Below, in pieces: positions 6,208 through 19,480 of a stretch of 20,412 nucleotides of DNA. How positions within the stretch are numbered: the stretch's first letter is position 1; each line of letters opens with the position of its first letter. The position numbers were made by a program, and so were the translations under genes. This DNA comes from a virus, in the IMG/VR virus record IMGVR_UViG_3300032820_000156, positions 1-20,412 of that record; one strand, given 5' to 3'. The notes below the pieces were generated by a model. That model was not told where the DNA came from. It worked only from the letters and a program-made list of their open reading frames with translations, and did not search any database.

Positions 6208-6933
6208 ATGGTAACGTATTCGACGGGTCTTAGAACAGAACTACAGGTAACAGGAGAAAATTCAGGTACATGGGGAACCATTACCAACAACAACTTTTCT
6301 CAGGTTTTTGAATTCGCCATTGCAGGCGTTTACGCCGTTCCTGCCATTACAACAGGCACATCTACTACTCTGTCTAATGCCGACGGACCCGATACTGCAG
6401 CTAACAACCAATCAAGACAAAATCAATTAATTTTCACAGGAACCGTTTCCACGACTCATACTGTTCAATTTCCAGCAACGCAAAAAACTTATGGACTTTA
6501 TAACAATATCACTGGTGGAGCTGACATTTCAGCACGTCTAGGGGCTACAGGAAATACGCTTACCATTACTAACGGAAAGTACCGTCTTGTTTCAACGGAT
6601 GGCACTGACTGGTATGACATTCTGTCTCTGGCAGGTTTGGATGAAACATGGACTTTAGTGGCGGATGGAACTACTTTAACAGCAGGGCAAAACGCTTTTG
6701 CTAACACGAACGCAGGAACTATAACATATACTTTACCTCTTTCTCCAAGCATTGGGGATCAGTGTAAGGTTGTTGATCTAGGAAACGCGGCTACGAATAA
6801 CATCACTATCAATAGAAATTCACAGCCAATTCAAGGACTGGACGCAAATATGACAATTTCTACTGACAGTGCTGCAATTTCTTTGGTATACAGTAATGCA
6901 ACATACGGGTGGAGGTTGAAATATAACGACTAA
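6208..6933 (+). CDS. Tail fibre-like protein with GENSGTWG motif
   Basis: The 241-residue protein starts with Tyr-Ser-Thr-Gly-Leu-Arg, then Thr-Gly-Glu-Asn-Ser-Gly-Thr-Trp-Gly-Thr-Ile-Thr-Asn-Asn-Asn-Phe (about 14-30), a pattern I know from marine-phage tail fibre-like proteins. The remainder is a Thr/Ala/Asn-rich beta protein, ending in an aromatic WRLKYND. It is preceded by AGGAGA and ends in a TAATG junction with the collar-domain gene, so the two are coupled. A receptor-contacting or fibre-base role is likely from motif and context. Confidence 0.7.
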   Translation: MVTYSTGLRTELQVTGENSGTWGTITNNNFSQVFEFAIAGVYAVPAITTGTSTTLSNADGPDTAANNQSRQNQLIFTGTVSTTHTVQFPATQKTYGLYNNITGGADISARLGATGNTLTITNGKYRLVSTDGTDWYDILSLAGLDETWTLVADGTTLTAGQNAFANTNAGTITYTLPLSPSIGDQCKVVDLGNAATNNITINRNSQPIQGLDANMTISTDSAAISLVYSNATYGWRLKYND

Positions 6934-7577
6934 TGAGTAACTTACAGGATTTTACAAATAGAAGTGAAGTAGGCGCAATCAAGCCTTGGGGCAAAGCAAC
7001 AGCTCCTGCCGGCTATGTATTATGTGATGGAGCGGCTATTTCAAGAACGGACTATGTTGATCTTTTCACTGTCATAGGAACAACTTATGGCGTGGGAAAT
7101 GGCTCTTCAACTTTCAATGTCCCTGATCTTCAAGGCAAAAGTCCTCAAGGATATGATGGCAATACTTACAATCTAGCTGCAACGGGAGGCGCGAACACCG
7201 TGACGGTGGCCGTGACCAACAACCAAGCGGTAAGTTCGGTGACTAATACTGTAACCAACAACCAAGCGGTAACGGTAACGGGATCTATTTCCACTACTTC
7301 GTTAACTACAGCTCAACTAGCGAGTCACAGTCACTCTGGTAATCTTGACACCGTTTCACCTGTTCAAAGAGGTGTAGGTGGTGTTCAATATTGGTGGGGT
7401 GTTACTGGATCAACAGGATCAGGAACAGGACATACTCACTCTCATACATTAGCGGGATCTCTAACTGGAACAGTGGCAGTAACTTCAAGTGGTGGCGCTC
7501 TAACGGGTGCGGTAACCGCGGCAGGAAACAATACTTTTTCACCGTACGTGGTGGTTAACTACATTATTAAACATTAG
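6933..7577 (+). CDS. Phage tail collar-domain protein
   Basis: The 214-residue protein has a clear phage tail collar domain (PF07484 type) at about residues 12-75: GAIKPWGKATAPAGYVLCDG, then Ile-Ser-Arg-Thr-Asp-Tyr, Leu-Phe-x-x-Ile-Gly-Thr-Thr-Tyr-Gly-x-Gly, and a STFNVPDLQG(K) strand. After it come Val/Thr/Asn repeats with a duplicated VTNNQAV segment (39-base period, see separate entry), His-rich HSHSG and GHTHSH segments, and an end (PYVVVNYIIKH) typical of these fibre tips. Such proteins form collar or short-fibre parts at the distal tail. The His pairs may bind metal ions in the trimer, as in T4 gp12; that is inference. Its start shares a base with the preceding stop. Confidence 0.85.
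   Translation: MSNLQDFTNRSEVGAIKPWGKATAPAGYVLCDGAAISRTDYVDLFTVIGTTYGVGNGSSTFNVPDLQGKSPQGYDGNTYNLAATGGANTVTVAVTNNQAVSSVTNTVTNNQAVTVTGSISTTSLTTAQLASHSHSGNLDTVSPVQRGVGGVQYWWGVTGSTGSGTGHTHSHTLAGSLTGTVAVTSSGGALTGAVTAAGNNTFSPYVVVNYIIKH
7215..7272 (+). repeat. Duplicated 19-bp segment, 39-bp period
   Basis: ACCAACAACCAAGCGGTAA occurs at 7215-7233 and again at 7254-7272, exactly 39 bases (13 codons) apart. It encodes the repeated Thr-Asn-Asn-Gln-Ala-Val of the collar protein's repeat region. The identity in DNA is higher than needed for the protein, so it is a recent internal duplication. Confidence 0.85.
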
Positions 7578-7585
7578 GAAAAATA

Positions 7586-7981
7586 ATGGCGACACAAATT
7601 GTAATATCAAACGAAGACTATATTAGAACAAATGATGATGGAAATTCTCAAATTCAGTGGGTGGATAGAGGAAACTCTATGCCTGCGCTTCCTCATGGTG
7701 TTGCGGATTCAATTCATTATGTGATATGGAATGATTTAGCAGGCCAGAATGAAGTGCAAAAATGTGATGAAGCCCATAATATGACTGGAAATGTAAGTTT
7801 AAATTCTGTAAGTGATGTTGTTCATGGATCCACGACTGTTCAAGATTTATTGGATTGGGTTGAGACAAGACAAGGTCAAATTTCTCAGGCCCATACGGAT
7901 TTTATGGCTGCCGGAGGCGGAGAACTAGGAACTGCCGCAGAAGGAAAGACCTGGCGCGATTACGATCCTAATTATTCTTAA
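7586..7981 (+). CDS. Small tail-associated conserved protein
   Basis: This 131-residue protein is the last gene of the + strand virion block. The N-terminal half (VISNEDYIRTNDDGNSQIQW, Pro-His-Gly-Val-Ala-Asp-Ser-Ile-His-Tyr-Val-Ile-Trp-Asn) resembles small proteins found after tail fibre genes in marine phages, where a His-x-Val-x-Trp strand is typical; the C-terminal half is helical with a final WRDYDPNYS. Function is not known; a fibre chaperone or tail-tip protein are options. Its 3' end overlaps the convergent - strand oxygenase gene by 14 bases, so there is no room for a terminator between the two transcription units. Confidence 0.65.
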   Translation: MATQIVISNEDYIRTNDDGNSQIQWVDRGNSMPALPHGVADSIHYVIWNDLAGQNEVQKCDEAHNMTGNVSLNSVSDVVHGSTTVQDLLDWVETRQGQISQAHTDFMAAGGGELGTAAEGKTWRDYDPNYS

Positions 7982-8558
7982 TTTTCATATTAAACGAAAC
8001 ACTTATCCTAGGTTTTTTATTCAAATTTTTAAAAACTCGGTGATAACACGAGGAATTAAAAAGAATAAGTTTATCTATAGTAGCTTTTAAAGGTTTAATT
8101 ATAATTCTGTCCTGCAAGGCTAGATCTAATTCAGAAGTAACACCAGTAAAATTTAAAAGTCCAATGTTTCCACAATTTTTAGGAGTCTGTAAATAATAAA
8201 CTCCTGAAATATCTCCTGCATGATTATGTGGCCAATTAATGTCATTAGTATAATTTATATTAGCCCATAAATTTTCCATAGTAATAGTTTTAAAATTAAA
8301 TGTGGAAATTTCTTCACCTATATTTCTTAAAAAAATAATAGCTTTTTGGGTTATAGCTTCAACAAGAGGTTCGTATATTCCCACAAGAGGCAGGAATTGT
8401 GACTGCCATCCAAAACCGTAATTAGAAAAAGCTTGTCCGTCTTTGTTTCCTCGTCTCATTAATTCAATGGTGGCTAATAAGTTATTTCGATAATTCTTCT
8501 GTAGTCCTAGTCGAGTTTCGCCGTATACATTAGGAGGAAAATTAAATTTAGGTTTCAT
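7968..8558 (-). CDS. Putative 2OG/Fe(II) oxygenase, HxH type (PF13759/TIGR02466-like)
   Basis: The 196-residue protein has the pattern of the 2OG-FeII_Oxy_5 group: WANINYTNDINWPHNHAGDI (about 98-117) followed by SGVYYLQTP, and later LILFNSSCYHRVF (about 164-176) with PRISVSFNM. Likely metal and co-substrate residues are His111-x-His113, His173 and Arg184. The HxH in place of HxD is shared with four other proteins here. These enzymes use 2-oxoglutarate and O2 to hydroxylate a substrate; this one's is unknown. It is the last gene of the nine-gene - strand operon, starts in an ATGA overlap with the gene before it, and its 3' end overlaps the convergent tail gene. Confidence 0.75.
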   Translation of the reverse strand: MKPKFNFPPNVYGETRLGLQKNYRNNLLATIELMRRGNKDGQAFSNYGFGWQSQFLPLVGIYEPLVEAITQKAIIFLRNIGEEISTFNFKTITMENLWANINYTNDINWPHNHAGDISGVYYLQTPKNCGNIGLLNFTGVTSELDLALQDRIIIKPLKATIDKLILFNSSCYHRVFKNLNKKPRISVSFNMKIKNN

Positions 8559-9118
8559 AATGTGTGTATATCCTTGACCACTAATTGAAATACAGCAGAA
8601 TACCTTCCCATTGTTTTATTTTTAGAATTCCATAATAAAGGAGTATGCAAGCAATCTTTTGATTCAAATAAAATAGCCCTGTTTTCTTTAAATCCCACAT
8701 GGACATCAATCTCATTACCTTTTTTATCTTGTCTATAAAAAGCAGTACCGCCATTTATTCTCTCATCACTTTTAATATAGAAAATAAGCTGCTGTTCGCA
8801 TTTATCTTTCACATAATCTATGTGAGGGAGAGGTTCTTTAGTGTTAACCCAAGTCCATGAACTTAATTCACAATGAACTATTTCCTTATTAAATTTGTTT
8901 CTTAATGCCTCTGTAAATATTAAAAAATCCTTTGGAGCAAGAGGTCCATTGGAATACCATATGTGATAAGAATGAGGAGAGTTATCAAGATCTCTTTTTC
9001 GTTCATCAGAAAGGGAATGAGAATCATGGCTCCATTCTAAAAAAGAAATATTATCGTATATTTTATTGAATTCTTTTTCAGGTAAAAAATTATCTACGAT
9101 AGTTAAATTTATAGACAT
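8555..9118 (-). CDS. Putative 2OG/Fe(II) oxygenase, HxD type (copy 2)
   Basis: The 187-residue product looks like a prolyl-hydroxylase-type 2-oxoglutarate/Fe(II) enzyme: IVDNFLP start, Pro98-His99-x-Asp101 as HxD, GGTAFY after a beta strand (about 123-128), GFKENRAILF, then His158 (Cys-Leu-His-Thr-Pro-Leu-Leu-Trp) and Arg172 (MGRY). All four key positions are present. It is clearly related to the product of 10989-11528, with matching IIDDFLP/IVDNFLP starts, EPxPHxD, GFKxNRAxLF and CxHxPLLWNS. In both places the gene is next to a DUF6065-like gene, so a two-gene module seems to have been duplicated. It begins two bases after the preceding stop and overlaps the following gene (ATGA). Confidence 0.85.
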   Translation of the reverse strand: MSINLTIVDNFLPEKEFNKIYDNISFLEWSHDSHSLSDERKRDLDNSPHSYHIWYSNGPLAPKDFLIFTEALRNKFNKEIVHCELSSWTWVNTKEPLPHIDYVKDKCEQQLIFYIKSDERINGGTAFYRQDKKGNEIDVHVGFKENRAILFESKDCLHTPLLWNSKNKTMGRYSAVFQLVVKDIHTL

Positions 9119-9120
9119 TT

Positions 9121-9786
9121 TTAGAAAAAACGTCTTAATAATGCTTTTCCTTTTTCTAGAAGAGGTTTGGCATGAGTAACATAATCAGTGACTTTAGCGT
9201 TTGAAGTAGCAAATCTAAGAAATTCTGGACTTGGATTAATATTTTCTTTTAATCGTATGGGTTCATTTATCTTATCTGCGTAGAAAACAACTTCACAAAT
9301 AACAGTGTTTCTGGTGATAAGTACTCGTTGGTGTGTGTCTTGTAGTTCAAAAGCGATATTAAAAGGCCTGCACCATTGTGAAATGTCAAATTTTCCTTTT
9401 ATCATCTTTAAACCAGGCAGGCTTGTTTCAGGATGACACTGTTCTATGAAACATTTTTCTTTTGAGTAAAAACACATTCCAAGATGTAATTGAAAAGTTA
9501 ATTTATTCTTATAGACGCTACTGAACTTACTTGTATTTAAAATTTCATTTAACATGTGTTCTGTTTTCGATGTATTAGTGGTTATAAGATAATCTCCCTC
9601 TCCTTTCGGGCCCGGTGATACTGTAAAATCCAGATCTACCGGACATTTTAATTTAAACCTGTTCATTACTGACCATTTATGGGCAAAACATTTATGATAT
9701 CCTTCATCAGTGTCATACTTGTAAGGTTCGAGTTCTTGGTGTAATACTCTGGGTAAAGCATCAGTATAGAAATAGTTAATAATCAT
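9121..9786 (-). CDS. Diverged DUF6065-like protein
   Basis: I choose the ATG at 9786, which overlaps the upstream stop as ATGA; a longer frame to 9828 would add 14 residues inside the neighbour. The 221-residue product begins MIINYFYTDALP. By eye it shows the same order of features as the DUF6065-like protein at 11525-12217: a basic/aromatic segment, NKLTFQLHLGMCFYS against NKWLITTPPGYSCLF, then KMIKGKFDISQW against FIINGVVDTDNY, and a closing VLITRNTVICEVVFY against FIIKKGEPMVQIIPF. Identity is low, so homology is an inference. It may be a jelly-roll protein that works with the adjacent oxygenase. Neither role nor active site is visible. Confidence 0.55.
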   Translation of the reverse strand: MIINYFYTDALPRVLHQELEPYKYDTDEGYHKCFAHKWSVMNRFKLKCPVDLDFTVSPGPKGEGDYLITTNTSKTEHMLNEILNTSKFSSVYKNKLTFQLHLGMCFYSKEKCFIEQCHPETSLPGLKMIKGKFDISQWCRPFNIAFELQDTHQRVLITRNTVICEVVFYADKINEPIRLKENINPSPEFLRFATSNAKVTDYVTHAKPLLEKGKALLRRFF

Positions 9787-10421
9787 TTTATTTTTATCAT
9801 ATCCTCTTCTACAGTTTGTTCGATCCAAGTTGAATCACTGACAAGTTTCTTTAAAAATTCTGGATGTAGCTTTTCTTTTAGAACTTTTCTTAATAGCTGA
9901 ACTTCATCTTCAAATTTTAAATCTTTATGCGGTCCATTACGATTTACATAATGTAAATGCATTTGATGATGCCAACTGGAGGGATGTTCCGAGAATATAG
10001 GACGCCAGTGAGGCACTTCACACCCTTTGTAAATCACCCCATCTCCAGACTCAATTACTATAGGTATGTCACCCATACATATAGGCCATTTATAATTTTT
10101 ATTTTGATATGAATACTTCATTGTAATAGTCACACTGTATTCACTTTGACTTCTGTCTACGTGCTTGGGCAGAACAGCTCCTGGCCGGTATAATCTTGTG
10201 TAAGCATAGATAGGTTTTAACTGTAAATTTGTCTCTTTTTCCATCCTGGGAAGGCAGTAAAATAGAAAATTTTGTAGTAGATGATCATACGCCGCGTGCA
10301 TCGCAGGAGAGCCTAGGCTGTCTAAAGCCATATTTTCACAGGTCAAAAGAATCCACGAAGAAGCAAAATCCACTATAGCGGGATCTAAAAAATTTTTAAC
10401 ATATTTATATTTTTCTTTCAT
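9783..10421 (-). CDS. 2OG/Fe(II) oxygenase-like protein with atypical C-terminus
   Basis: The 212-residue protein has a YVKNFLDP start, then YAYTRLYRPGAVLPKHVDR (about 72-90) with His87-x-Asp89, and GDGVIYKGCEVPHWR (about 126-140) with His138. These are the iron-binding positions expected for a 2-oxoglutarate dioxygenase. The usual Arg about ten residues after the last His is not obvious: the strand reads HHQMHLHYVN. Arg140 next to the metal His may do the job, or the co-substrate pocket differs. A charged C-terminal extension (about 165-212) follows. The gene joins its upstream neighbour through a one-base TAATG overlap and its downstream neighbour through ATGA. Confidence 0.7.
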   Translation of the reverse strand: MKEKYKYVKNFLDPAIVDFASSWILLTCENMALDSLGSPAMHAAYDHLLQNFLFYCLPRMEKETNLQLKPIYAYTRLYRPGAVLPKHVDRSQSEYSVTITMKYSYQNKNYKWPICMGDIPIVIESGDGVIYKGCEVPHWRPIFSEHPSSWHHQMHLHYVNRNGPHKDLKFEDEVQLLRKVLKEKLHPEFLKKLVSDSTWIEQTVEEDMIKIK

Positions 10422-10996
10422 TAATTAAACCAGGTAATAACACTATGCCTCACTCCGTTATTCACAGGAGTGACAGCGTGAGGGTAGCAAAAATTACTGG
10501 GAAAGATCACGGCACTTCCTGCTTTTTTAGGAATAATATGTTCACCTCCGAAAAAAGAAAAATCTCCACCCTCATAATTATCATTTAAAATTATGGAACA
10601 GCTTAAAACTCTTGGGGAAAAAGTGTGATCCACGTGTTCCTTGCATTCCCCCTTCTCTGATCCTTTGTATATTAAATGGTGGAATCCTGTATCCGTCCAT
10701 CCATCCCCGGTTCCAGACACGTGATTAAATTCCTTTTCATATGATTTTAATATTTTAGCGTGCGCGTCAAAGATTTCTCCACCAGTATCTTTTGGCAGTT
10801 CTCTTTTAATATAACACCCTACTCGGTAGAAGTCGCCTACCACCCTATAGTACTCTGTGGTCGTGTCTTTAATTCCTGTTGTCTCTTTTATTATTCCTAT
10901 ATCTTCCGCCTCAGTAAATTCTTTCATAATTTCTGCACATAACTTTTTATCGATTATGTTTTCGTAGCACTTAATGTAGTCCTTCAGATTAATCAT
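10421..10996 (-). CDS. Canonical 2OG/Fe(II) oxygenase (prolyl 4-hydroxylase-like)
   Basis: This is the most classical dioxygenase of the cluster. With the ATG at 10996 the product has 191 residues: GWTDTGFHHLIY, then His121-x-Asp123, SCSIILND, Tyr-Glu-Gly-Gly-Asp-Phe-Ser-Phe (about 141-148), GSAVIFPS, His173 and Arg183 at the right spacing, ending ITWFN. All iron and 2-oxoglutarate contact positions are intact, so I expect an active enzyme. Relatives hydroxylate prolyl, lysyl or other side chains, but the substrate here is unknown. A longer frame to 11032 is possible but would overlap the preceding gene by 44 bases; the chosen start overlaps by 8. Confidence 0.88.
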   Translation of the reverse strand: MINLKDYIKCYENIIDKKLCAEIMKEFTEAEDIGIIKETTGIKDTTTEYYRVVGDFYRVGCYIKRELPKDTGGEIFDAHAKILKSYEKEFNHVSGTGDGWTDTGFHHLIYKGSEKGECKEHVDHTFSPRVLSCSIILNDNYEGGDFSFFGGEHIIPKKAGSAVIFPSNFCYPHAVTPVNNGVRHSVITWFN

Positions 10997-11528
10997 GATA
11001 ATCCACTGATTCAAACCACACAAGACAAGCATATCTTCCCATAGAGGTGGAATTCCATAATAGAGGGCTATGCATGCAATTTTTTGCTGAAAAAAGAACA
11101 GCTCTGTTTTTTTTAAAACCTATGTGTGTATTTAAGTCATGACCCTTGTCCTTGTTTTCTATGTAAAAACCTGTACCACTGTTTACTTCTTGATCCCCTT
11201 TAATATAAATCATTAAATGCCTTTCTCCTGGAAATTTTTCTATGTCAAAATGAGGGGCAGGCTCCTGTGCGTTTGTTAATGTCCAAGCTGCTAAATTTAT
11301 TCTTTTCATTTCTTGTCTAAATTTCTTTCTTACATTTTCTTTAACGGTTGTAATAAAGTTATCATCTGAATGGATAGCGTGTGAAAAGAAAATATGAGCA
11401 TCTTTATCTTCTCCCTTGTTATTTTTAATATACATAGGACTAAATGACAGTTTACCTATGTTCTCATAAATATTATTAAATATATCTTTTGGTAAAAAAT
11501 CATCTATGATATGTATATTCCAACTCAT
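10989..11528 (-). CDS. Putative 2OG/Fe(II) oxygenase, HxD type (copy 1)
   Basis: The 179-residue protein has MSWNIHIIDDFLP, a middle helical part, LAAWTLTNAQEPAPHFD with His93-x-Asp95, NSGTGFY (about 116-122), GFKKNRAVLF, then Cys-Met-His153-Ser-Pro-Leu-Leu-Trp and Arg165 in SMGRY. The full iron and 2-oxoglutarate set is therefore present. It is a paralogue of the product of 8555-9118, which shares all these landmarks at nearly the same spacing. Its start overlaps the preceding DUF6065-like gene (ATGA), as expected for co-translated partners. Substrate unknown. Confidence 0.85.
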   Translation of the reverse strand: MSWNIHIIDDFLPKDIFNNIYENIGKLSFSPMYIKNNKGEDKDAHIFFSHAIHSDDNFITTVKENVRKKFRQEMKRINLAAWTLTNAQEPAPHFDIEKFPGERHLMIYIKGDQEVNSGTGFYIENKDKGHDLNTHIGFKKNRAVLFSAKNCMHSPLLWNSTSMGRYACLVWFESVDYHD

Positions 11529-12217
11529 TTAAAACTTTTCTTTTTCCAAAACATTTTTTTATACCTGTCAATAAACTCACTGTTTAATAGATTCAAAGTA
11601 TAGGAATGTTTTTTTTCGTGATAGAAACCTGACCACATTTTCCACGACTCTCTTTTAAAAGGAATAATTTGAACCATAGGCTCTCCTTTTTTAATGATAA
11701 ACTGCTTATCACGCTTAAGAAGAATAAAGGGAAAATTAATAGTGTTAATATAATTATCCGTATCTACGACCCCATTAATAATAAAGAAACGATCTTCTTT
11801 AAACCTGTTCATTGGTTGCGTGAACAAGCAACTGTATCCCGGAGGCGTTGTGATCAGCCATTTATTTATAAATTTACCCATATATTCTCCAGTTTTACTA
11901 TGCCATTCTTTGGGCGCTTGAATTTTATCGTGATACCCAATAGCAGATTCTTCCTTGTTCGCTGGAATAATAGAAAATTCTTCTTCTGTAGGATTGATTA
12001 TATAATCTTGGTCGAAAGGTATAATGTATCCGGCCGCCATCGCATCAAGAAAAGGCATACATGTTTTAATTGTTGGGGATTGTAAATCCCCACGCTTGTG
12101 TCTTTCTAATTTTTTATATTCTTCAGGAATAATGTTGCTCGCTGGTTTTGGATGAGGCCATATTTCTACCATAGGCCTGCTAGTCGAGCAGAATTTAATT
12201 TTTTTATCAAATATCAT
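11525..12217 (-). CDS. DUF6065-like protein
   Basis: The 230-residue protein matches a pattern I associate with DUF6065: a Pro-rich start (IWPHPKPASNIIPEEYKKL, about 19-37), then TIKTCMPFLDAMAAGYIIPF (about 49-68), FINKWLITTPPGYSCLFTQP (about 116-135), a FIINGVVDTDNYIN strand pair and KKGEPMVQIIPFKRESWKM near the end. Members are found beside oxygenases in phages and bacteria as far as I recall; their biochemical role is not established. The strand-rich pattern could form a jelly-roll barrel. The gene overlaps both neighbours by four bases (ATGA), so it is made together with the oxygenase downstream. The assignment rests on memory of motifs. Confidence 0.65.
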   Translation of the reverse strand: MIFDKKIKFCSTSRPMVEIWPHPKPASNIIPEEYKKLERHKRGDLQSPTIKTCMPFLDAMAAGYIIPFDQDYIINPTEEEFSIIPANKEESAIGYHDKIQAPKEWHSKTGEYMGKFINKWLITTPPGYSCLFTQPMNRFKEDRFFIINGVVDTDNYINTINFPFILLKRDKQFIIKKGEPMVQIIPFKRESWKMWSGFYHEKKHSYTLNLLNSEFIDRYKKMFWKKKSFK

Positions 12218-12846
12218 TTTTCGACCGGCGTTCCTACAATAGTATTATTAATTGTGAAATTCAAAGGCATTGAACGCCTTATATCATTCGGATCCTTCGT
12301 TTTGAAGGGATTGACACAATGCATATGATCCGCCTGAAAAATATAAAACTCACCCGCCTCTGGAAGGAAAGATTCTGATGCTGTGCCATTTGGAGCAAGA
12401 AAAGTTATGAACCCATCCTTAAATTTATGTGGCTCTGTGACATCATTTATGAATTCAGGAACTTTTAAATACAAATTAGCCGCATACCCTATATTGTCAT
12501 TGTGAGTGTGAATAGGATTATATTCTCCCGGCTTCATATCATTCATCCAACATGAAAGTATATCAAGATTATGAGGTCCAGGCTTGCATGTACCGTGTTC
12601 TATGCAAGTGTCGATATAATTGCTCATACATTCTGTTATTCTTTTAAATATTTTAGCGCTTTGAAGTATAGGCATCAAATCCAATTCTGAATCAAGTCTT
12701 CCCGCTAGATCTTTCGCTTTTGATTTTAATAAGTTTGTGTTTTTTAAGGCCTCTTCATATTTTTGATTCATATCATCAATGAGATCCAGTTCTATTCTAT
12801 ATTTACAGACTATCCTTCCGAATACTAACATTTCGTCATACATCAT
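12214..12846 (-). CDS. Putative 2OG/Fe(II) oxygenase, HxH type with helical N-terminus
   Basis: The 210-residue protein has a charged helical N-terminal part (about 20-85) and then a dioxygenase-like core: LDILSCWMNDMKPGEYNPIH, giving His113-x-His115 followed by Asn-Asp, AANLYLKVP, and GEFYIFQADHMHCVNPF with His176 and an Arg pair at 190-191 in IRRSMPLNF. The last His and Arg are well placed for iron and 2-oxoglutarate; the first pair is HxH, as in three to four neighbours. Two ATGs, at 12846 and 12843, are equally possible starts. The upstream gene's TGA overlaps both. Confidence 0.72.
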   Translation of the reverse strand: MMYDEMLVFGRIVCKYRIELDLIDDMNQKYEEALKNTNLLKSKAKDLAGRLDSELDLMPILQSAKIFKRITECMSNYIDTCIEHGTCKPGPHNLDILSCWMNDMKPGEYNPIHTHNDNIGYAANLYLKVPEFINDVTEPHKFKDGFITFLAPNGTASESFLPEAGEFYIFQADHMHCVNPFKTKDPNDIRRSMPLNFTINNTIVGTPVEK

Positions 12847-13400
12847 TTTGAGTAGATTCCCATGTTACCAGAAATAACAACTCTTTCATTATTAGAATTA
12901 GAGGAAGGGGCTGTATGAAGCAATGAAGACGGAAATATTATTAATAATCCAACATTACTCTTGACTGAGTATTGATATTCTTTGCTTAATAAATGAGGTG
13001 AATAGAATTCCGTTCCTCCAACAGAAGTTAAATATAGAACAGATGAAAAATTATTAGATGGAGGTGAGTAATGAGATCCGTTGTTATGGGTATGTTCTTT
13101 ATGATATCCCTTGTCAGCGTAGATCGCCGTCCAATAATTATGCAATTGATAATTGTAATTATTATTTTCGAAATAATTTTTTATGGGCATCATTAATTTT
13201 TCATATTCATGTAGTGGTATAGAGTTCTGAAAATCCGTGGCGTAATCAGAGAGGCTCTGCTCTTCTTCGTAAAAAGATGCTCGTTGGATAATGGCTTTCT
13301 TCTTCTCCTGGTATTCATTCAGGAGAGGGGTGATCTCCTCTTTTTGAAATTGGAATTTTTTAATTGGCACACTAAAAATGTTTAATTCTTCTAGTAGCAT
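12843..13400 (-). CDS. Putative 2OG/Fe(II) oxygenase, HxH type; first gene of the operon
   Basis: The 185-residue protein starts LNIFSVPIKKFQF, a common opening of this enzyme group. A Glu/Lys-rich helical part follows, then NYWTAIYADKGYHKEHTHNN with His103-x-His105 and a SSVLYLTSVGGTEFYSP strand pair (about 119-135). IIFPSSLLHTAPSSNSNNERVVISGN supplies His162 and Arg173. A GGGAGGG stretch lies about 13 bases before the ATG as a probable ribosome binding site. As the promoter-proximal gene it is transcribed from the 13401-13554 region, which carries the FNR-type palindrome. Substrate unknown. Confidence 0.75.
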   Translation of the reverse strand: MLLEELNIFSVPIKKFQFQKEEITPLLNEYQEKKKAIIQRASFYEEEQSLSDYATDFQNSIPLHEYEKLMMPIKNYFENNNYNYQLHNYWTAIYADKGYHKEHTHNNGSHYSPPSNNFSSVLYLTSVGGTEFYSPHLLSKEYQYSVKSNVGLLIIFPSSLLHTAPSSNSNNERVVISGNMGIYSK

Positions 13401-13464
13401 TTATCTATCTTTCCCTCCCATATTTCTGTCCTTTCCATATCATATTTTCTTTGTCAAGAGAACT

Positions 13465-13504
13465 ATTATCATAATTGGACATTAATCATCTTGATTTAAA
13501 TCAA
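13465..13504 (-). promoter_or_regulatory. FNR/CRP-type palindrome upstream of the oxygenase operon
   Basis: Positions 13491-13504 read TTGATTTAAATCAA, a perfect 14-base inverted repeat and an exact match to the FNR-type consensus TTGAT-N4-ATCAA. On the - strand, -10-like hexamers TATGAT (13473-13468), GATAAT (13470-13465) and TAATAG (13468-13463) start 17, 20 and 22 bases after it. An activator bound at -41.5 (class II) needs about 22. The leader to the ATG at 13400 would be some 55-60 bases. The + strand gene at 13555 could use the same site. Promoter function is inferred. Confidence 0.4.
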
Positions 13505-14033: not shown

Positions 14034-14597
14034 CTAATTTAATTTCCTTTGTATTTTAGCATTAAAACTTAACATAATTCTATCCTCTTTTGAATTGTTA
14101 ATTTCCACCTCATGATTAAGCCATGAAGGAAAAATAAGCAAGTCATTAACTTTCGGCTGCCAGCCTACGCGTGGGGCTAAATGAATGGATTGATTCTCTT
14201 TCATAGGGGGAGATAAAACTTCAGATTGGGGATGAGGATTATGAAAAGTCAGTTTCCCGCTGTCCTTTGGGACTTGCAGATAAAAAGCTCCTGAGAGATA
14301 ATTATGGGGGTGTGAGTGCAATTTATTGTAGGTTCCCGGCCCATTGATCATGGCCCACATCCCAGTAAGACGCGGTTCACAATGATTCTCCACACCTAAA
14401 TGATCTAACGCCTCTATGCAGTAGTGAATGAGGTCCGCTTTAATGACACCGAAACGCTTGTCCTCGTGAAGATCATCACGGCTGTGCCATCCCCCTTGAT
14501 TCGTTTTTTGAATTCCTTTTGAATCTTCTTTTTGAACTTCTCGGACAGCTTTAATTAAATCTCCATAGTCACCGTTGGTGAAATTTACCGCGAACAC
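14034..14597 (-). CDS. Putative 2OG/Fe(II) oxygenase, HxH type; start uncertain
   Basis: The protein (187 residues from the GTG at 14597) has GMWAMINGPGTYNKLHSHPH with His94-x-His96, LSGAFYLQVP, SGKLTFHNPHPQ, and DLLIFPSWLNHEVEINNSKE with His162 and Arg173, ending MLSFNAK: a complete PF13759/TIGR02466-type pattern. The true start is probably further upstream. The frame continues without stop through Leu-Phe-Ile-Thr-Pro-Val-Phe, a typical start of this family, back to an ATC at 14627-14625. That ATC overlaps the upstream TAA and has AAGGAG (14640-14635) seven bases before it. The GTG has no ribosome binding site. See findings. Confidence 0.8.
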   Translation of the reverse strand: MFAVNFTNGDYGDLIKAVREVQKEDSKGIQKTNQGGWHSRDDLHEDKRFGVIKADLIHYCIEALDHLGVENHCEPRLTGMWAMINGPGTYNKLHSHPHNYLSGAFYLQVPKDSGKLTFHNPHPQSEVLSPPMKENQSIHLAPRVGWQPKVNDLLIFPSWLNHEVEINNSKEDRIMLSFNAKIQRKLN

Positions 14598-14626: not shown

Positions 14627-14995
14627 TTAGAGTGCTCCTTTTGTTGTTTCTAAAAAGCTCATTGTGATGTGGATCTCATTGGCGGCGTTCGCCGTAATTT
14701 TAATCAAGTCCGATTCCTCCAGAACCAGAGGCTGTGACAGAACTTCATAGGTCGTGTCGGTAGTAATAGTCTTATCGTTGGTAATTTTATAGGTTGCTGA
14801 AGCGCTACTGTCAGTCCATTCTATGGTATACTCGGTGGTGTTCGCCGAATCATTGCATATGAGGATGGATTTAATTACAGCCGTGGTTGGAAAAACAGGA
14901 GGCAGAGCTCCTGGATCAGCCGTTGGAACAGTGTAAATGGTTGTAGGACCAGTGGTGGTCATATCTACAGCGGCGTTTTTAAAGGTATCAGCCAA
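14627..14995 (-). CDS. Small beta-rich virion protein with TTG start
   Basis: The 122-residue product (Ala-Asp-Thr-Phe-Lys-Asn-Ala, TTTGPTTIYTVPTADPG, AVIKSILICNDSANTTEYTI, SQPLVLEESDLIKITA, IHITMSFLE) has the alternating pattern of a beta sandwich and matches small virion proteins seen in marine phages, where VVKSIxISN and a PLVLEAGDxL strand are typical. The start codon is TTG at 14995, eight bases after GGAAGGAG, so this unusual start is well supported. The gene overlaps the end of the 55-residue gene before it. A decoration or tail-tube accessory role is inferred. Confidence 0.7.
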   Translation of the reverse strand: MADTFKNAAVDMTTTGPTTIYTVPTADPGALPPVFPTTAVIKSILICNDSANTTEYTIEWTDSSASATYKITNDKTITTDTTYEVLSQPLVLEESDLIKITANAANEIHITMSFLETTKGAL

Positions 14996-15155
14996 GGAAC
15001 CAACTCCTTCCGCTATTTTTTTCTTCTATGTCTTGAGCATAGGAAGTGTTAAGAAGCAGGATAAGTTGCTCCAGAAGACGAATCATTTGATCAAACTGAC
15101 CGCTTTCATACTGGGGTGTTGCGTTAGGTAAACGTGTGATTGTAATTTTAGGCAT
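14988..15155 (-). CDS. 55-residue conserved small protein
   Basis: Between the genes at 14995 and 15159 lies a 168-base frame from ATG (15155) to TGA (14990-14988). The product begins MPKITITRLPNATPQYESG, followed by QFDQMIRLLEQLILLLNTSY, a leucine-rich amphipathic helix, and ends Ser-Trp-Phe-Leu-Gly. The helix pattern QFDQxxRxLxQLxxxLN with a final xxWFLG is something I recall from small marine-phage proteins in the same position. It starts three bases after the previous stop and overlaps the TTG start of the next gene, so it fits the operon closely. The function is unknown; oligomerisation through the helix is likely. Confidence 0.65.
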   Translation of the reverse strand: MPKITITRLPNATPQYESGQFDQMIRLLEQLILLLNTSYAQDIEEKNSGRSWFLG

Positions 15156-15158
15156 TTT

Positions 15159-15746
15159 TTAATATCTTCCAAATCCTCCAGGATATCCGAATAATCCTCC
15201 CAATCCCCCTAGCATGGAATAGGGATTAAAACCATAGGAAGATGTATGTCCAGGTGGCTGTGCCTGCTGTATTGGGGATTGTTTATTTAAGCCCGCAATT
15301 CCTTCTTCTATCTTACCCAAGCGATCACTAATGTTGCTGAATTGATCTCCAAATCCACCCATCTTTTCACCGAGTCCTCCTAAAGTGGATTCAAATCCAC
15401 CCATTCTTTCTCCAAGTCCCCCAAGCTGTTCGCCGAAACCTCCTATTTGTTCACCATATCCTCCAAGTGTTTCTCCGTATCCCCCTAATTGCTCTTCAAA
15501 ACCTGTTATCTGCTCTCCCATTCCTTTAATTCCCCACGGATCCAGTTGCTGTTGAATTGGTGGCTGTTGGTACGGCCATTGTCTTGGTCCTCCTCCTTGC
15601 GGAGGGTATTGAGGTCGTACTGGCTGTTTTGGATCTCCCCAGTTTCCAGTCATGCCGGGTCGGCCACCAAGTCCAGTAATCCCACTTCCCAACGCGTTAA
15701 GGAAGGGATTCATCATCCTTCTTTCATTAGGATTGAATTGTGTCAT
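15159..15746 (-). CDS. Gly-rich heptad-repeat protein with Pro/Gln-rich N-terminal part
   Basis: The 195-residue product has three parts: a Pro/Gln/Gly-rich stretch (about 39-71, with QYPPQGGGPRQWPYQQPP), eight seven-residue repeats of the form Gly-Glu-x-hydrophobic-Gly-Gly-aromatic/hydrophobic (77-132), and a Gly/Phe/Tyr-rich tail (LGGLGGLFGYPGGFGRY). No known domain is recognised. The heptads keep hydrophobic residues at positions 4 and 7, like a coiled coil interrupted by Gly pairs. The protein may be an extended linker, self-assembling rod or flexible virion protein. It follows the gp10-like gene with a TAATG overlap. The Pro-rich part could be a hydroxylation target; this is a guess. Confidence 0.65.
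   Translation of the reverse strand: MTQFNPNERRMMNPFLNALGSGITGLGGRPGMTGNWGDPKQPVRPQYPPQGGGPRQWPYQQPPIQQQLDPWGIKGMGEQITGFEEQLGGYGETLGGYGEQIGGFGEQLGGLGERMGGFESTLGGLGEKMGGFGDQFSNISDRLGKIEEGIAGLNKQSPIQQAQPPGHTSSYGFNPYSMLGGLGGLFGYPGGFGRY
15351..15518 (-). repeat. Eight heptad-coding units (21-bp period)
   Basis: Residues 77-132 of the Gly-rich protein form eight seven-residue units (GEQITGF, EEQLGGY, GETLGGY, GEQIGGF, GEQLGGL, GERMGGF, ESTLGGL, GEKMGGF). The DNA has a 21-base period with CCTCC and CACC-type cores on the + strand, but units differ at many silent positions. It is therefore older than the perfect 24-base array at 2332. Confidence 0.9.
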
Positions 15747-17593
15747 TATCTTCTTCCGTCCGGTCTGAGTTGCAGTTTCATTGAACCAAGTCGCCAGTTC
15801 GTGTCATTAATAGCATTGGATACAAAAGCGAGGTTCACGGACCTTCCCCTTCCCCGTATGTCAATTTTTTGTGTTGAAGACGTGACATTTCCTGTTGTTG
15901 TCACATTAGCTGCTGACTGTGGATATTGTTCCAAAGTCAATGTAACAGCAACATTATTTGTTAGATTAGTGAAGTCAGGAACGAATTTACTGACGGACAT
16001 TAATTGATCTCCCGAGGCGATTTCAATGGATCCTGAAGTCAGGCTCGCACTAATCGCCGTGCCGTCAGCTTGATTGTTTCCTTTCTCGTGTTCGTAGACA
16101 TAAGAGGCTCCCGCCGTCAGGCCTAGAATGGTCGCGGAATTAGCCGTTAAAGTCGTGCTATATTGAGTGGCGATAGGCTGTTCATATATCTCTGCCGCAA
16201 GCCAACTCGTACGGTCAAGGCTGATAGTATACCAGGTATTTTCCAGATAATTATAGACAACTCCTCTGTCAATTTGCGTAGCACTAGCTGTAGCGTAATA
16301 CCAAATAATTTCATTGAACTCGGTGTTCAGTCCGCATGCAATGTCGTTTCTATTAGTGAAACTAAGGTCATCAAATACAAAGTCCTGTACGGAACAAGGC
16401 ATTTTTTTAACCACACCATCATACACGTAAAAGGAATTCTCTCCCATCCAGTAGGCTTTACCGTTTACATCTATGCAAGCATGTTGAGCTATCAATCCGC
16501 AGTTAGCTCCTAATTGACGCTGTCCGAAAGTATAAGGAGTTCCAACAAACTGAACACCGTGCAGGGATTTATCCGTCCACACAAGTATTTGTCCTGTTGA
16601 TTTAACCGCTCCTATGATACGTGATCCATCCGCAATACGAAGGGATCCTGCTTCATTCGTCGCTACAGGAGTCCAATCCGTCAGATCTTCCCTGTCCGAC
16701 CATCTAAAAAATAAATCATCCTGTGTAGCCGTGTTTGCAATCGTTGTCTCCGTTCCCATACAAAAAAGGTGACGGGTGTCCGCAGACACTAGACTGAACC
16801 GTGACGCCGTAGGGGCGTTTGTAATAATCGCCGCCCTATTAGAGACACCGCCTGAAAGATCCCATTTATAAGTTCCCCCATTAATAACCGTTGCGATCAA
16901 ATCTTCCCCAAAGTTATCAAGTGACCAGTTTCTTGCGTAAATCACCACACTTGATGATGAACGAGCTGTACCCCAGGTACTAGCCCCCCATGTAGAAGTG
17001 CCCCATCCATATCCAAAGGTGGAGGTTGCCTCTCCAATGGAGAGTTGATAATTGGCGTTTCCTGTTCCACCGCCGCCTGATGTTGATCCTGACGCCGTAC
17101 TCGTATGAGTGACGGTATAATTATCTGAATCCGTAATGGTAGTAATCTCAAATTCATTATTCATATCCAAGCCGTCAATGGCGGAGAATGAATCAAAGGT
17201 CACAAAATCCCCTTGTTCAGCGTCGTGCGCCGTATCCGCTACGGAAACAGTTGTCGTACCGTTGGTCGTGAAAGGGTTGGTAAGGGAGTCGGGTCCTGAT
17301 CGTATGGGGGTGATGTCATTGAACACTCCTCCAACAAAAACATAGAGTTTCCTGTCGGTTCCCAAGGCGAGATGCCTAGTTCCGTCCAGACTAAGCCACG
17401 CATGCGTATCGCGGACTACGCCCACCACTGTTGTATTAGGATTAGGAAGATAGTCCCATCCGTTCCAACGCTCGGGTTTTCCGTAATGAAAACGTACAAA
17501 ATCAGAGTCGATATAGCGTCGGTCATCACCGGCCGCATAAGGAGAATCCTGTTTATCTATTCCTGGTTGAAATTTTAAATCGGTTAATTGCAT
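15746..17593 (-). CDS. P22 gp10-like tail/DNA stabilisation protein
   Basis: The 615-residue protein starts LKFQPGIDKQDSPYAAGDDRRYIDSD (given in parts: LKFQPGIDKQDSPYAAG, then RRYIDSDFVRFHYGKPERWNGW), a pattern I associate with the phage stabilisation protein family (P22 gp10, PF11134) of marine podoviruses. Most of it reads as beta-propeller-like strands, with repeated W-x-x-x-D and YVYDGVVKKMPCSVQDFVFDD segments. A Trp-Gly cluster GYGWGTSTWGASTWG (about residues 193-209) follows a Gly/Ser linker and resembles clusters in the repeat protein at 4715-6178. In P22 the protein forms part of the tail needle-hub connection. Here its gene lies 11.5 kb away, on the other strand, from the gp4-like gene. 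Start: ATG at 17593, 16 bases after the preceding stop. Confidence 0.75.
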   Translation of the reverse strand: MQLTDLKFQPGIDKQDSPYAAGDDRRYIDSDFVRFHYGKPERWNGWDYLPNPNTTVVGVVRDTHAWLSLDGTRHLALGTDRKLYVFVGGVFNDITPIRSGPDSLTNPFTTNGTTTVSVADTAHDAEQGDFVTFDSFSAIDGLDMNNEFEITTITDSDNYTVTHTSTASGSTSGGGGTGNANYQLSIGEATSTFGYGWGTSTWGASTWGTARSSSSVVIYARNWSLDNFGEDLIATVINGGTYKWDLSGGVSNRAAIITNAPTASRFSLVSADTRHLFCMGTETTIANTATQDDLFFRWSDREDLTDWTPVATNEAGSLRIADGSRIIGAVKSTGQILVWTDKSLHGVQFVGTPYTFGQRQLGANCGLIAQHACIDVNGKAYWMGENSFYVYDGVVKKMPCSVQDFVFDDLSFTNRNDIACGLNTEFNEIIWYYATASATQIDRGVVYNYLENTWYTISLDRTSWLAAEIYEQPIATQYSTTLTANSATILGLTAGASYVYEHEKGNNQADGTAISASLTSGSIEIASGDQLMSVSKFVPDFTNLTNNVAVTLTLEQYPQSAANVTTTGNVTSSTQKIDIRGRGRSVNLAFVSNAINDTNWRLGSMKLQLRPDGRR

Positions 17594-17609: not shown

Positions 17610-18416
17610 TTACTTCTTCTCTGGAGGCAAGAATTGAGTGCCTATATTTCCTCTAAAAGAATAGGTTCCATAATGCGTCACGCCGCTAAATACATCAGCA
17701 TAAACGGTGCCACCAATTTTCTGCCATAGTCTACAGAAAGCATAGTCTTCTGACAAGTATCTTTTGGAATCCGGATCAATCATCGTGTCAAAAAAAGCAT
17801 AGTTCCAATCGGAGGTTTCATGATATTTAAACTTATCCTCATGGGGCTGTCCTAAATGCTGATCATTCGTGAACTTGAGATGAGGATAGGCCACTTTCAT
17901 TTTATTAAACACATTTCGTTTAATAAGCATGAATCCGGTTGCCGCATCCATCACTTCAATAAATCCCTTTCTCATTTCAATATGGTCGGGATTTTTTACA
18001 TTAAGATTATATTCTAAAGAAAAAGCGTGGAGTTCATCGGGAGTAATGTCAGGTTTTTCTTGAGCTTTCTTTGTTACTTTGCGCCAATCAATTGCCTTGC
18101 GAGGGTAGATGGCCGCCACTACTTCTTCATCTAGATCCAACATGCGCATAACAGTTTTATACTCAAAGCCAATATCCGCATCTATAAATAAGAGATGAGT
18201 ATACTTATTTTTATCATCCATAAATAATTGGACTAATGTATTGCGAGCCCTGGTTACCAACGATTCATTTCCAATAGTGGCGAACTGCAATCCTATGCCT
18301 TGTCTTATGCATTCATGCATTAAGGCCAAGCAGCCTTCAAAATAATTAACACTAAGCATTCCTCCGTAACACGGGGTAGCGACAAACAGTTTAATTTTAG
18401 AAGTTTTTTTGACCAT
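17610..18416 (-). CDS. GT-A-type glycosyltransferase (family 2-like)
   Basis: The 268-residue protein has a nucleotide-sugar transferase pattern: IKLFVATPCYGGM (about 8-20), ATIGNESLVTRARNTLVQLF (46-65), HLLFIDADIGF with Asp79-Ala-Asp81 as the DxD metal motif, VVAAIYPRK, DAATGFMLIKRNVF, and RYLSEDYAFCRLWQKIGG near the C-terminus, where the acidic pair could be the catalytic base region. This resembles family 2-like transferases found in marine phage genomes. Donor and acceptor are unknown. The gene overlaps the one before it by 20 bases and lies downstream of an oxygenase, so hydroxylation followed by glycosylation of a virion protein is a testable idea. A host-surface or DNA target is also possible. 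Confidence 0.8.
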   Translation of the reverse strand: MVKKTSKIKLFVATPCYGGMLSVNYFEGCLALMHECIRQGIGLQFATIGNESLVTRARNTLVQLFMDDKNKYTHLLFIDADIGFEYKTVMRMLDLDEEVVAAIYPRKAIDWRKVTKKAQEKPDITPDELHAFSLEYNLNVKNPDHIEMRKGFIEVMDAATGFMLIKRNVFNKMKVAYPHLKFTNDQHLGQPHEDKFKYHETSDWNYAFFDTMIDPDSKRYLSEDYAFCRLWQKIGGTVYADVFSGVTHYGTYSFRGNIGTQFLPPEKK

Positions 18417-18687
18417 AACTAACTGTTAAATATTCAATATGAGTTACCCATCCTTTAGGAATGGCAATGGCGCCACCACCCATAACGTCATTCTTATCTT
18501 TACTATCTTTGCTGTAGGAACGCATAATAATTACTTTTTCAGGGTTATTAACAACCATCCATCCCACCTCTTGGCACACGGCCAACGGCGAATGAAGGAT
18601 CTCTTTAATATCAATCCATCCGGTTTCTGTATCACGAGCATCCGTCCACGTCACACGGACCATCGGGACATTCTTGATATCAATCAC
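18397..18687 (-). CDS. Small conserved protein of unknown function, GTG start
   Basis: The 96-residue protein starts at GTG 18687, which overlaps the preceding TGA as GTGA. Its pattern, VRVTWTDARDTETGWIDIKE, then VGWMVVNNPEKVIIMRSYSK, and GGAIAIPKGWVTHIEYL, fits a small beta-barrel-like fold; I recall phage proteins with GW, a valine-rich strand and IPKGxVxxIxxL, with no assigned function. Single copies sit near tail and modification genes. The end overlaps the glycosyltransferase gene by 20 bases. No enzymatic residues are evident. Confidence 0.6.
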   Translation of the reverse strand: MIDIKNVPMVRVTWTDARDTETGWIDIKEILHSPLAVCQEVGWMVVNNPEKVIIMRSYSKDSKDKNDVMGGGAIAIPKGWVTHIEYLTVSYGQKNF

Positions 18688-19421
18688 TTTTTATTATAAA
18701 ATTCTTTGTTACGCAATGTTTCAGCATTACCAGCTTCGTTGCCTGGCTTCTTAACGAGTTCAAGGTTAAAAGAAACCGATCGTCTTTCCTGTCTCTTGGT
18801 TCTAAAAGGATAGACACCGTGTGAAAGCCAATTAGGAAATAAGAATATATCACCCACTTTTGGAGTTTGCTGCAACTTATGTCCGCTGAATGTCGCGGCT
18901 TGACCGTGAAAAAAAACTATGTCACCTACTGTTGGATAATGATCTTCTTCCTTGTATTCATGTTCCAGTCCGGGTGGAATGCGTAAATAAATGACTCCTG
19001 ATAATTGTCCTTCATGAATATGAAAAGGATTAAAGTCTCCCGCCCACTGGCTCACGGTCCACATTGATTGAATGACAAGCTTGCCCACAAACGCAGGACT
19101 AATGGTTTCATTTGCTGGAGGAATGGAGATGTAAGCTTTTACCATTTCTCCAATATACTCAACCATCGGCTTGAATTCTTTGGTGCTCATCCACGATGAA
19201 GGAAAGCGCACTTCTTTTTTAACATTGCCCGCTAGGTTTGGCGCGTGATTAAATTCTTTGGAAAGCTGTTCACTCCCCAGCATTTTTGTTGCTTTCTTAT
19301 CCAATAAATGAATAAGATCCATAGGAACTGTTCCTTTGATAACAGTAGGACCAAACGGTCTAATGGCTTCAAATTTATGATTGAAGAGCGCTACTGATTC
19401 TGTCTTAACTTTCTTCGCCAT
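18684..19421 (-). CDS. Putative 2OG/Fe(II) oxygenase, HxH type; first gene of the right operon
   Basis: I prefer the ATG at 19421 (245 residues, starting MAKKVKTESVALFN) to a TTG at 19442. Neither has a clear ribosome binding site. The core contains IQSMWTVSQWAGDFNPFHIH with His134-x-His136, LSGVIYLRIPPG, GDIVFFHGQAATFSG and GDIFLFPNWLSHGVYPF with His201, followed by Arg213-Arg214 and SVSFNLE, the PF13759/TIGR02466-type pattern. The long N-terminal part (about 1-110) is larger than in the other copies. It is the first gene of the nine-gene right operon, diverging from the gene at 19537. Confidence 0.78.
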   Translation of the reverse strand: MAKKVKTESVALFNHKFEAIRPFGPTVIKGTVPMDLIHLLDKKATKMLGSEQLSKEFNHAPNLAGNVKKEVRFPSSWMSTKEFKPMVEYIGEMVKAYISIPPANETISPAFVGKLVIQSMWTVSQWAGDFNPFHIHEGQLSGVIYLRIPPGLEHEYKEEDHYPTVGDIVFFHGQAATFSGHKLQQTPKVGDIFLFPNWLSHGVYPFRTKRQERRSVSFNLELVKKPGNEAGNAETLRNKEFYNKK

Positions 19422-19480
19422 TATTCTATTGTCATATACCAAGAATTTGCATATAAATATAGATTAAAATAGGCCTACAT

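Follow-up and report, generated by a model that had tools for sequence, protein, structure and literature searches.

What does a marine phage gain from a run of adjacent oxygenase genes, and on what would their products act? The question is raised by the virus record IMGVR_UViG_3300032820_000156 of IMG/VR, a linear record of 20,412 bases, analysed over its whole length and called the window below, in which nine genes follow each other on the - strand; seven of them carry the motifs of 2-oxoglutarate (2OG)-Fe(II) oxygenases. The best explanation found is that an HTVC023P-like marine podovirus carries here a "decoration cassette" which can be exchanged. As to its function, a hydroxylation-led decoration of tail-adhesin or tail-tip proteins, or of their glycans, is tentatively proposed, with somewhat less than an even chance of being correct.

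The nine open reading frames (ORFs), which had been described in a previous reading of the letters alone (the sequence-only reading) as a coupled array between 13400 and 7968, were all confirmed, together with their junction types. They are named A1 to A9, in the order of transcription:

A1, 12843..13400, - strand: 2OG-Fe(II) oxygenase, phrog_81 / 2OG-FeII_Oxy_5 (Pfam E 3.2e-8, phrog_81 E 1.4e-23), with HxH..H..R.
A2, 12214..12846, - strand: 2OG-Fe(II) oxygenase, phrog_81 (Pfam E 1.5e-7), part of the conserved core of the site.
A3, 11525..12217, - strand: DUF6065 / phrog_7084 (Pfam E 3.5e-7), predicted dUTPase-like fold, partner of A2 in the conserved core.
A4, 10989..11528, - strand: 2OG-Fe(II) oxygenase of the phrog_274 type (E 7e-15), HxD..H..R 100% conserved.
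A5, 10421..10996, - strand: 2OG-FeII_Oxy_3 / phrog_61, prolyl-hydroxylase-like (Pfam E 6.8e-13); the ORF is also open from an ATG at 11032.
A6, 9783..10421, - strand: 2OG-Fe(II) oxygenase fold in an AlphaFold2 (AF2) model; phrog_2954, labelled 'ferrochelatase' elsewhere.
A7, 9121..9786, - strand: phrog_17480 (E 7.6e-15), possible divergent DUF6065/dUTPase-like protein, weakly similar to A3.
A8, 8555..9118, - strand: 2OG-Fe(II) oxygenase of the phrog_274 type (E 4.7e-16), with HxD..H..R.
A9, 7968..8558, - strand: 2OG-Fe(II) oxygenase, phrog_81 (Pfam E 1.9e-13), with HxH..H..R.

Neighbouring genes overlap by up to 8 bases, or are separated by a 2-base gap, found at A7/A8. Four-base ATGA overlaps occur at A1/A2, A2/A3, A3/A4 and A8/A9, and A5 and A6 share a single base (TAATG). 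The overlaps of 8 bases at A4/A5 and of 4 bases at A6/A7 are obtained with internal ATG codons, which place the start of A5 at 10996, instead of 11032, and that of A7 at 9786, instead of a TTG at 9828. Judged by these junctions, the A1-A9 block is one translationally coupled operon; the equivalent junctions in related contigs (n=510) have a median of -4. The G+C content of the array is about 31-38%, against about 37-49% for the structural genes.

By Pfam and PHROGs most of the products are 2OG oxygenases, and not members of unrelated folds. Pfam scores are above cut-off for A1, A2 and A9 (2OG-FeII_Oxy_5) and for A5 (2OG-FeII_Oxy_3), while A4 and A8 were assigned through phrog_274 and common motifs; the library name of this last family is 'endonuclease V', yet its sequences bear HxD..H..R. 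This motif is shared by A5 (phrog_61), whereas the phrog_81 family (A1, A2, A9) shows HxH..H..R and A6 (phrog_2954) HxD..H. In family alignments A6 alone lacks the usual distal Arg, so that the count of six in seven, given by the sequence-only reading, is correct. Across related contigs, the catalytic positions of each oxygenase family are 97-100% conserved (alignments of 57-125 sequences), and because of this conservation the seven array oxygenases, which belong to four families, appear to be kept active by selection; caution is needed for phrog_81, in which the carboxylate position is a His in 125 of 125 sequences (HxH..H..R, not HxD/E..H), and which may have a three-His iron site.

The AF2 model of A6, with a predicted local distance difference test score (pLDDT) of 89.1, has a prolyl 4-hydroxylase as its best PDB match (E 1.4e-8), and the top PDB matches listed are all 2OG oxygenases or unnamed proteins of 2OG-oxygenase fold, an EF-Tu-bound prolyl 4-hydroxylase and a viral collagen prolyl hydroxylase (vCPH) being included. 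The bacterial and viral prolyl 4-hydroxylases which give the best fold matches (P. putida P4H, 4j25/4iw3; PBCV-1 vCPH, 5c5t) have the HxD..H metal site in common with A6, but are only 8-18% identical to it, and the usual distal Arg/Lys position is missing in A6. The metal-site residues H87, D89 and H138 are invariant, and none of the 23 A6-family members matches the Pfam ferrochelatase profile. A role as ferrochelatase, or in iron-haem metabolism, is ruled out by this fold match and by the missing ferrochelatase match: as modelled, A6 is of 2OG-oxygenase fold. Relatives of A6 were found in 144 phage records, many labelled 'ferrochelatase', and on the basis of the model this label looks wrong for many marine phage proteins. 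One of these relatives is HTVC023P gp67, a 'putative ferrochelatase', and the iron-haem argument made for the HTVC023P-type phages rests on that name (PMC9599517).

The relabelling bears on the possibility that the array genes are metabolic auxiliary genes, serving a 2-oxoglutarate drawdown or a tuning of host nitrogen or iron metabolism. Such a role has already been proposed for cyanophages (PMC3037559), and host iron-transport genes are up during HTVC027P infection (PMC12753301). The iron-linked 'ferrochelatase' argument falls, however, because the proteins in question have a predicted 2OG-oxygenase fold, and a simple 2OG sink could do without a large set of divergent, rapidly swapped oxygenases whose active sites are preserved, and without a conserved partner of dUTPase fold. 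Auxiliary metabolism therefore fits less well than tail decoration, and is considered very unlikely.

The sequence-only reading had counted two DUF6065-like genes in the array. This holds for A3, which scores 30.4 bits against a Pfam cut-off of 26.6; A7 has no Pfam DUF6065 match, and is linked to A3 by profile comparison alone (hhalign E 0.0024-0.015 over 45-47 residues, covering motifs 3-4, above 60 of 60 shuffles). A direct scan of viral contigs for close relatives of A7 gave one partial match only. A7 is therefore a possible divergent member of the group.

A sequence search found no solved structures for A3. When its AF2 model (pLDDT 75.7) was compared by Foldseek, all of the 50 PDB matches listed were dUTPases (best E 1.5e-5, target-normalised template modelling score not above 0.73), and dUTPases were again matched in a viral structure library. 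A clean alignment of A3 with the dUTPase profile reached E 0.012-0.016, which is not significant alone, as 2 of 40 shuffles scored equally high; the aligned stretch spans dUTPase motifs 2-4, with GVxDxD and GxPxxQ in register with motifs 3 and 4. No match was given by a broad comparison of the DUF6065 and dUTPase profiles (E 0.23), nor by a Pfam dUTPase search of the window proteins. A3 is thus like the dUTPase superfamily in its predicted fold and in motifs 3-4, and unlike it in the missing Pfam match, in a Gly-rich motif 5 which is not recognised and in a different C-terminus. It models as a dUTPase-like fold; since the sequence-profile support is marginal, what carries this statement is the structure model, together with the label 'triphosphate nucleotidohydrolase' which GenBank gives to the S-CREM1 relative of DUF6065 (hhalign E 1.5e-9).

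A dUTPase-like A3 suggests that the array might make or process a modified nucleotide or DNA base, in which case A3 would act on nucleotides and the oxygenases would hydroxylate the base. The model, the S-CREM1 annotation and the neighbourhood of DUF6065, which lies beside thymidylate synthase and DNA polymerase genes in haloarchaeal viruses (HSTV-2, L002) and near ribonucleotide reductase in cyanophage S-RIM4 (L247), speak for it, as does a known phage carbamoyltransferase acting on 5-hydroxymethylcytosine (PMC8670742). Against it, no thymidylate synthase was found in 14 array-bearing contigs of up to 64 kb, most of them fragments; the hypermodification genes of HTVC023P-type phages lie near the DNA polymerase, and not at the array (PMC9599517); the array has a late tail-gene position, and seven diverse oxygenases exceed the needs of base chemistry. 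Overall, a nucleotide pathway seems quite improbable.

The genomic setting of the array favours tail decoration. The other features of the window to which reference is made are:

6933..7577, + strand: tail collar/fibre protein (phrog tail families), adjoining the array, with an HxH-rich segment.
7586..7981, + strand: small protein g7586, convergent with the array (14-base tail-to-tail overlap), a syntenic marker of the site.
13401..13503, no strand: divergent gap of 103 bases between A1 and a + strand gene at 13504, by gene layout the natural spot for an array promoter.
14034..14597, - strand: 2OG-Fe(II) oxygenase outside the array, phrog_81 (Pfam E 5.7e-27).
15746-17593: stabilization protein, used as neutral structural anchor.
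17610..18416, - strand: phrog_1574 protein (E 1.1e-43), with weak similarity to a phrog glycosyltransferase (E 1.4e-4).
18684..19442, - strand: 2OG-Fe(II) oxygenase, phrog_81 (E 8.8e-27).

With A3 as the query, 51 contigs were retrieved, and at least 584 when the search was widened; all counts include near-duplicates, and refer to contigs rather than to independent events. In order to avoid the circularity of an A3-based search, the stabilization protein was taken as anchor. All 19 complete sites obtained in this way contain A2 and A3, plus 0 to 11 further genes, for arrays of 2 to 13 genes (thirteen in L240). The density of the array, which had seemed unusual from the sequence alone, is therefore nothing exceptional, and has precedents in S-CREM1, Mosig and S-SCSM1. 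Most related arrays consist only of oxygenases and DUF6065. A2 lies directly upstream of A3 in 92 cases, and A5 directly upstream of A6 in 63 of 77. The A3-A5-A6 set is kept in distant phages (L071, L072, L077). In podovirus contigs the site adjoins tail collar/fibre genes, and DUF6065 is found in tail or neck neighbourhoods of unrelated phages as well (L077, L097, L098, L169); in the last three, A3 is flanked by other oxygenases, while L052, L164 and L167 have it among tail genes with no recognised oxygenase. One array-bearing contig (L076, A3 65% identical) lies within AG-910-K03, a single-cell genome of an alphaproteobacterium, which may point to the host.

Turnover was evaluated in 38 contigs, whose close relationship had been judged from the genes that flank the array. 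Identity averages 95% in the stabilization protein and 92% in g13776, and falls to 51% in g7586, 69% in the collar protein, 72% in A3, 50% in A5 and 47% in A6; orthologs above 40% are absent for A4, A7, A8 and A9, and a single one is found for A1. Each array gene is most similar to a gene of another phage (50-90%), whereas its identity to other genes of the window reaches at most 40%; this pattern indicates cassette exchange and rules out tandem duplication as the origin of the array. In these comparisons the array is a hypervariable exchanged cassette, and the adjacent tail-tip genes diverge along with it. An assembly chimera can be ruled out too: the order A3-A4-A5-A6-like-P81-A9 is the same in the independent contig L009, and contigs L051/L171 and L054, from metagenome 3300032278, match the window ends at 99-100% and stop inside the array, as strain variation would cause. 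Hypervariability, the tail-gene neighbourhood of the oxygenases and the fold model of A3 had no place in the sequence-only reading.

Additional genes in related arrays include a carbamoyltransferase (N and C parts; full-length in L072), a glycosyltransferase of family 9 (GT9), methyltransferases of the FkbM and Methyltransf_24 families, JmjC hydroxylases and a DUF6817-2OG fusion; L159 has a weak sulfotransferase match close to its array. From their families, these inserts suggest that groups are transferred to hydroxyls. With carbamoyl-, glycosyl- and methyltransferases and JmjC hydroxylases present in related arrays, the multi-step or multi-target modification role suggested previously is reasonable. 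In S-SCSM2R (L261), a natural A6-A5-type fusion at 14986-16269 is followed by several glycosyltransferases, one of family 25 (GT25) included.

GT9 heptosyltransferases, FkbM methyltransferases and carbamoyltransferases are typical of surface-glycan decoration. Their presence in related arrays would also suit a late-infection modification of the host cell surface (lipopolysaccharide, exopolysaccharide or envelope proteins), for instance to block superinfection or to keep released virions from adhering to debris, the tail fibre being linked to the array as both track the same receptor. The tail-tip genes which vary within the same cassette, and the S-SCSM2R oxygenases within a run of glycosyltransferases, agree with it. 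The window array, however, has no glycan-building enzyme, with the possible exception of the distant gene at 17610, and the prevalence of arrays of oxygenases and DUF6065 alone is also unfavourable. Host-surface modification is the nearest rival to tail decoration, and an unlikely one.

In the proposed tail decoration, the oxygenases would hydroxylate residues or glycans of tail-tip adhesin proteins during virion assembly, a substrate and a timing which we infer, and in related phages the resulting hydroxyls would be capped by methyl-, carbamoyl- and glycosyltransferases encoded at this site. A5 and A6 may act as a pair. Exchange of oxygenase genes would give a new decoration pattern and a changed host-facing surface, leaving the virion backbone as it was. 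A3 and A7 might supply or recognise a nucleotide-linked substrate, or dock on trimeric fibres through the dUTPase trimer fold; this is the least supported step. Counted in favour of tail decoration are the tail-gene site, the valley of identity, cassette exchange, the prolyl 4-hydroxylase match of A6, the transferase inserts, the A6-A5 fusion and the absence of thymidylate synthase from the 14 contigs. Several points weigh on the other side. As phrog_81 has HxH..H where HxD/E..H is expected, one cannot be sure that its members use 2OG; it is hard to see what a dUTPase fold would do in protein hydroxylation, and DUF6065 genes elsewhere lie near thymidylate synthase or ribonucleotide reductase; adjacency to tail genes could be merely that of a tolerated insertion hotspot, and the similar array of S-CREM1 sits in a different context. 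A stronger version, in which a combinatorial, exchangeable post-translational decoration has the dUTPase-fold DUF6065 protein as obligate partner of the hydroxylases, and swaps re-dress the tail tip with its protein backbone unaltered, is rather doubtful. Still, a fixed hypervariable site by the tail genes, a conserved partner of predicted dUTPase fold and a corrected 'ferrochelatase' label replace a vague 'host metabolism' story with one that can be tested, the hydroxylation of tail proteins.

As for the remaining features, both oxygenases outside the array, which had been noticed previously at 14034 and 18684, belong to phrog_81; among solved structures the former is closest to 2rg4 and 3bvc, both of them uncharacterized proteins of marine origin. 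The phrog_1574 protein gave no match in a Pfam search, and its relatives are found near DUF6065 in other phages (L088, L163, L164). The collar protein contains HSHSG and GHTHSHT stretches, resembling the HxH motifs by which short tail fibres bind metal. A lysine-rich protein encoded at 2008-2475 ends with at least 5 copies of GGVAKKSK, and imperfect GGxGExxGG repeats make up the protein adjoining the stabilization protein (15159-15746). A promoter and terminator scan gave no match above chance, and no close DNA match to the window was found among phages.

The closest cultured counterparts are the HTVC023P-type Podoviridae pelagiphages, whose stabilization proteins are 39-41% identical to that of the window, and which have the same array site; the order tail-collar-array-stabilization-glycosyltransferase is common to the window and HTVC027P. 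The published set (HTVC023P, HTVC027P and 80 environmental genomes) was reported to contain up to eight types of 2OG oxygenases, with a 'ferrochelatase' adjoining one of them; the oxygenases were described as nearby but not adjacent, and the A6-type gene was read as a ferrochelatase (PMC9599517). Unlike the window, HTVC023P and HTVC027P have no DUF6065 match, and their array-type oxygenases at this site number only 3-4: three array-type genes in HTVC027P, and four oxygenases among the tail genes in HTVC023P. The temporal class of HTVC027P gp72-74 is not given in the published transcriptome text.

S-CREM1 (ORF70-80; PMC9964418) resembles the window in that a DUF6065 relative directly precedes nine tandem annotated oxygenases, with an A6-type and one JmjC protein among them, but is a T4-like cyanomyovirus with the array on the + strand. 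Just before the DUF6065 relative, at 7302-11069 (L260), lie a collagen-like/glycine-rich protein and a tryptophan halogenase. This halogenase adjoining the array, and a chemistry resembling natural-product tailoring, would fit oxygenases which tailor a small molecule or a peptide made in infection; in the contigs surveyed, however, the site had no recognised enzyme for building a scaffold and no recognised precursor peptide, and small-molecule tailoring fits less well than tail decoration, and has little probability.

Pelagibacter phage Mosig EXVC030M has six tandem oxygenases of the A5, A6, phrog_274 and phrog_81 types between tail-fibre and neck genes, as in the window, but is T4-like, has no DUF6065 match in the cluster and carries extra haem oxygenase and bilin reductase genes. 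In S-SM1 about ten oxygenases follow one another, and the numbers reported per genome are 24 in S-SCSM1 (PMC9602691) and ten in S-CREM1 (PMC9964418). No published description was found of a DUF6065 core, of the hypervariability of the site or of the corrected A6 label. Oxygenase arrays of this sort are already known in ocean phages, where they are recurrent; the modelled 2OG-oxygenase fold of A6, the dUTPase-fold model of A3, the hypervariable cassette and the transferases and JmjC hydroxylases of related arrays are new.

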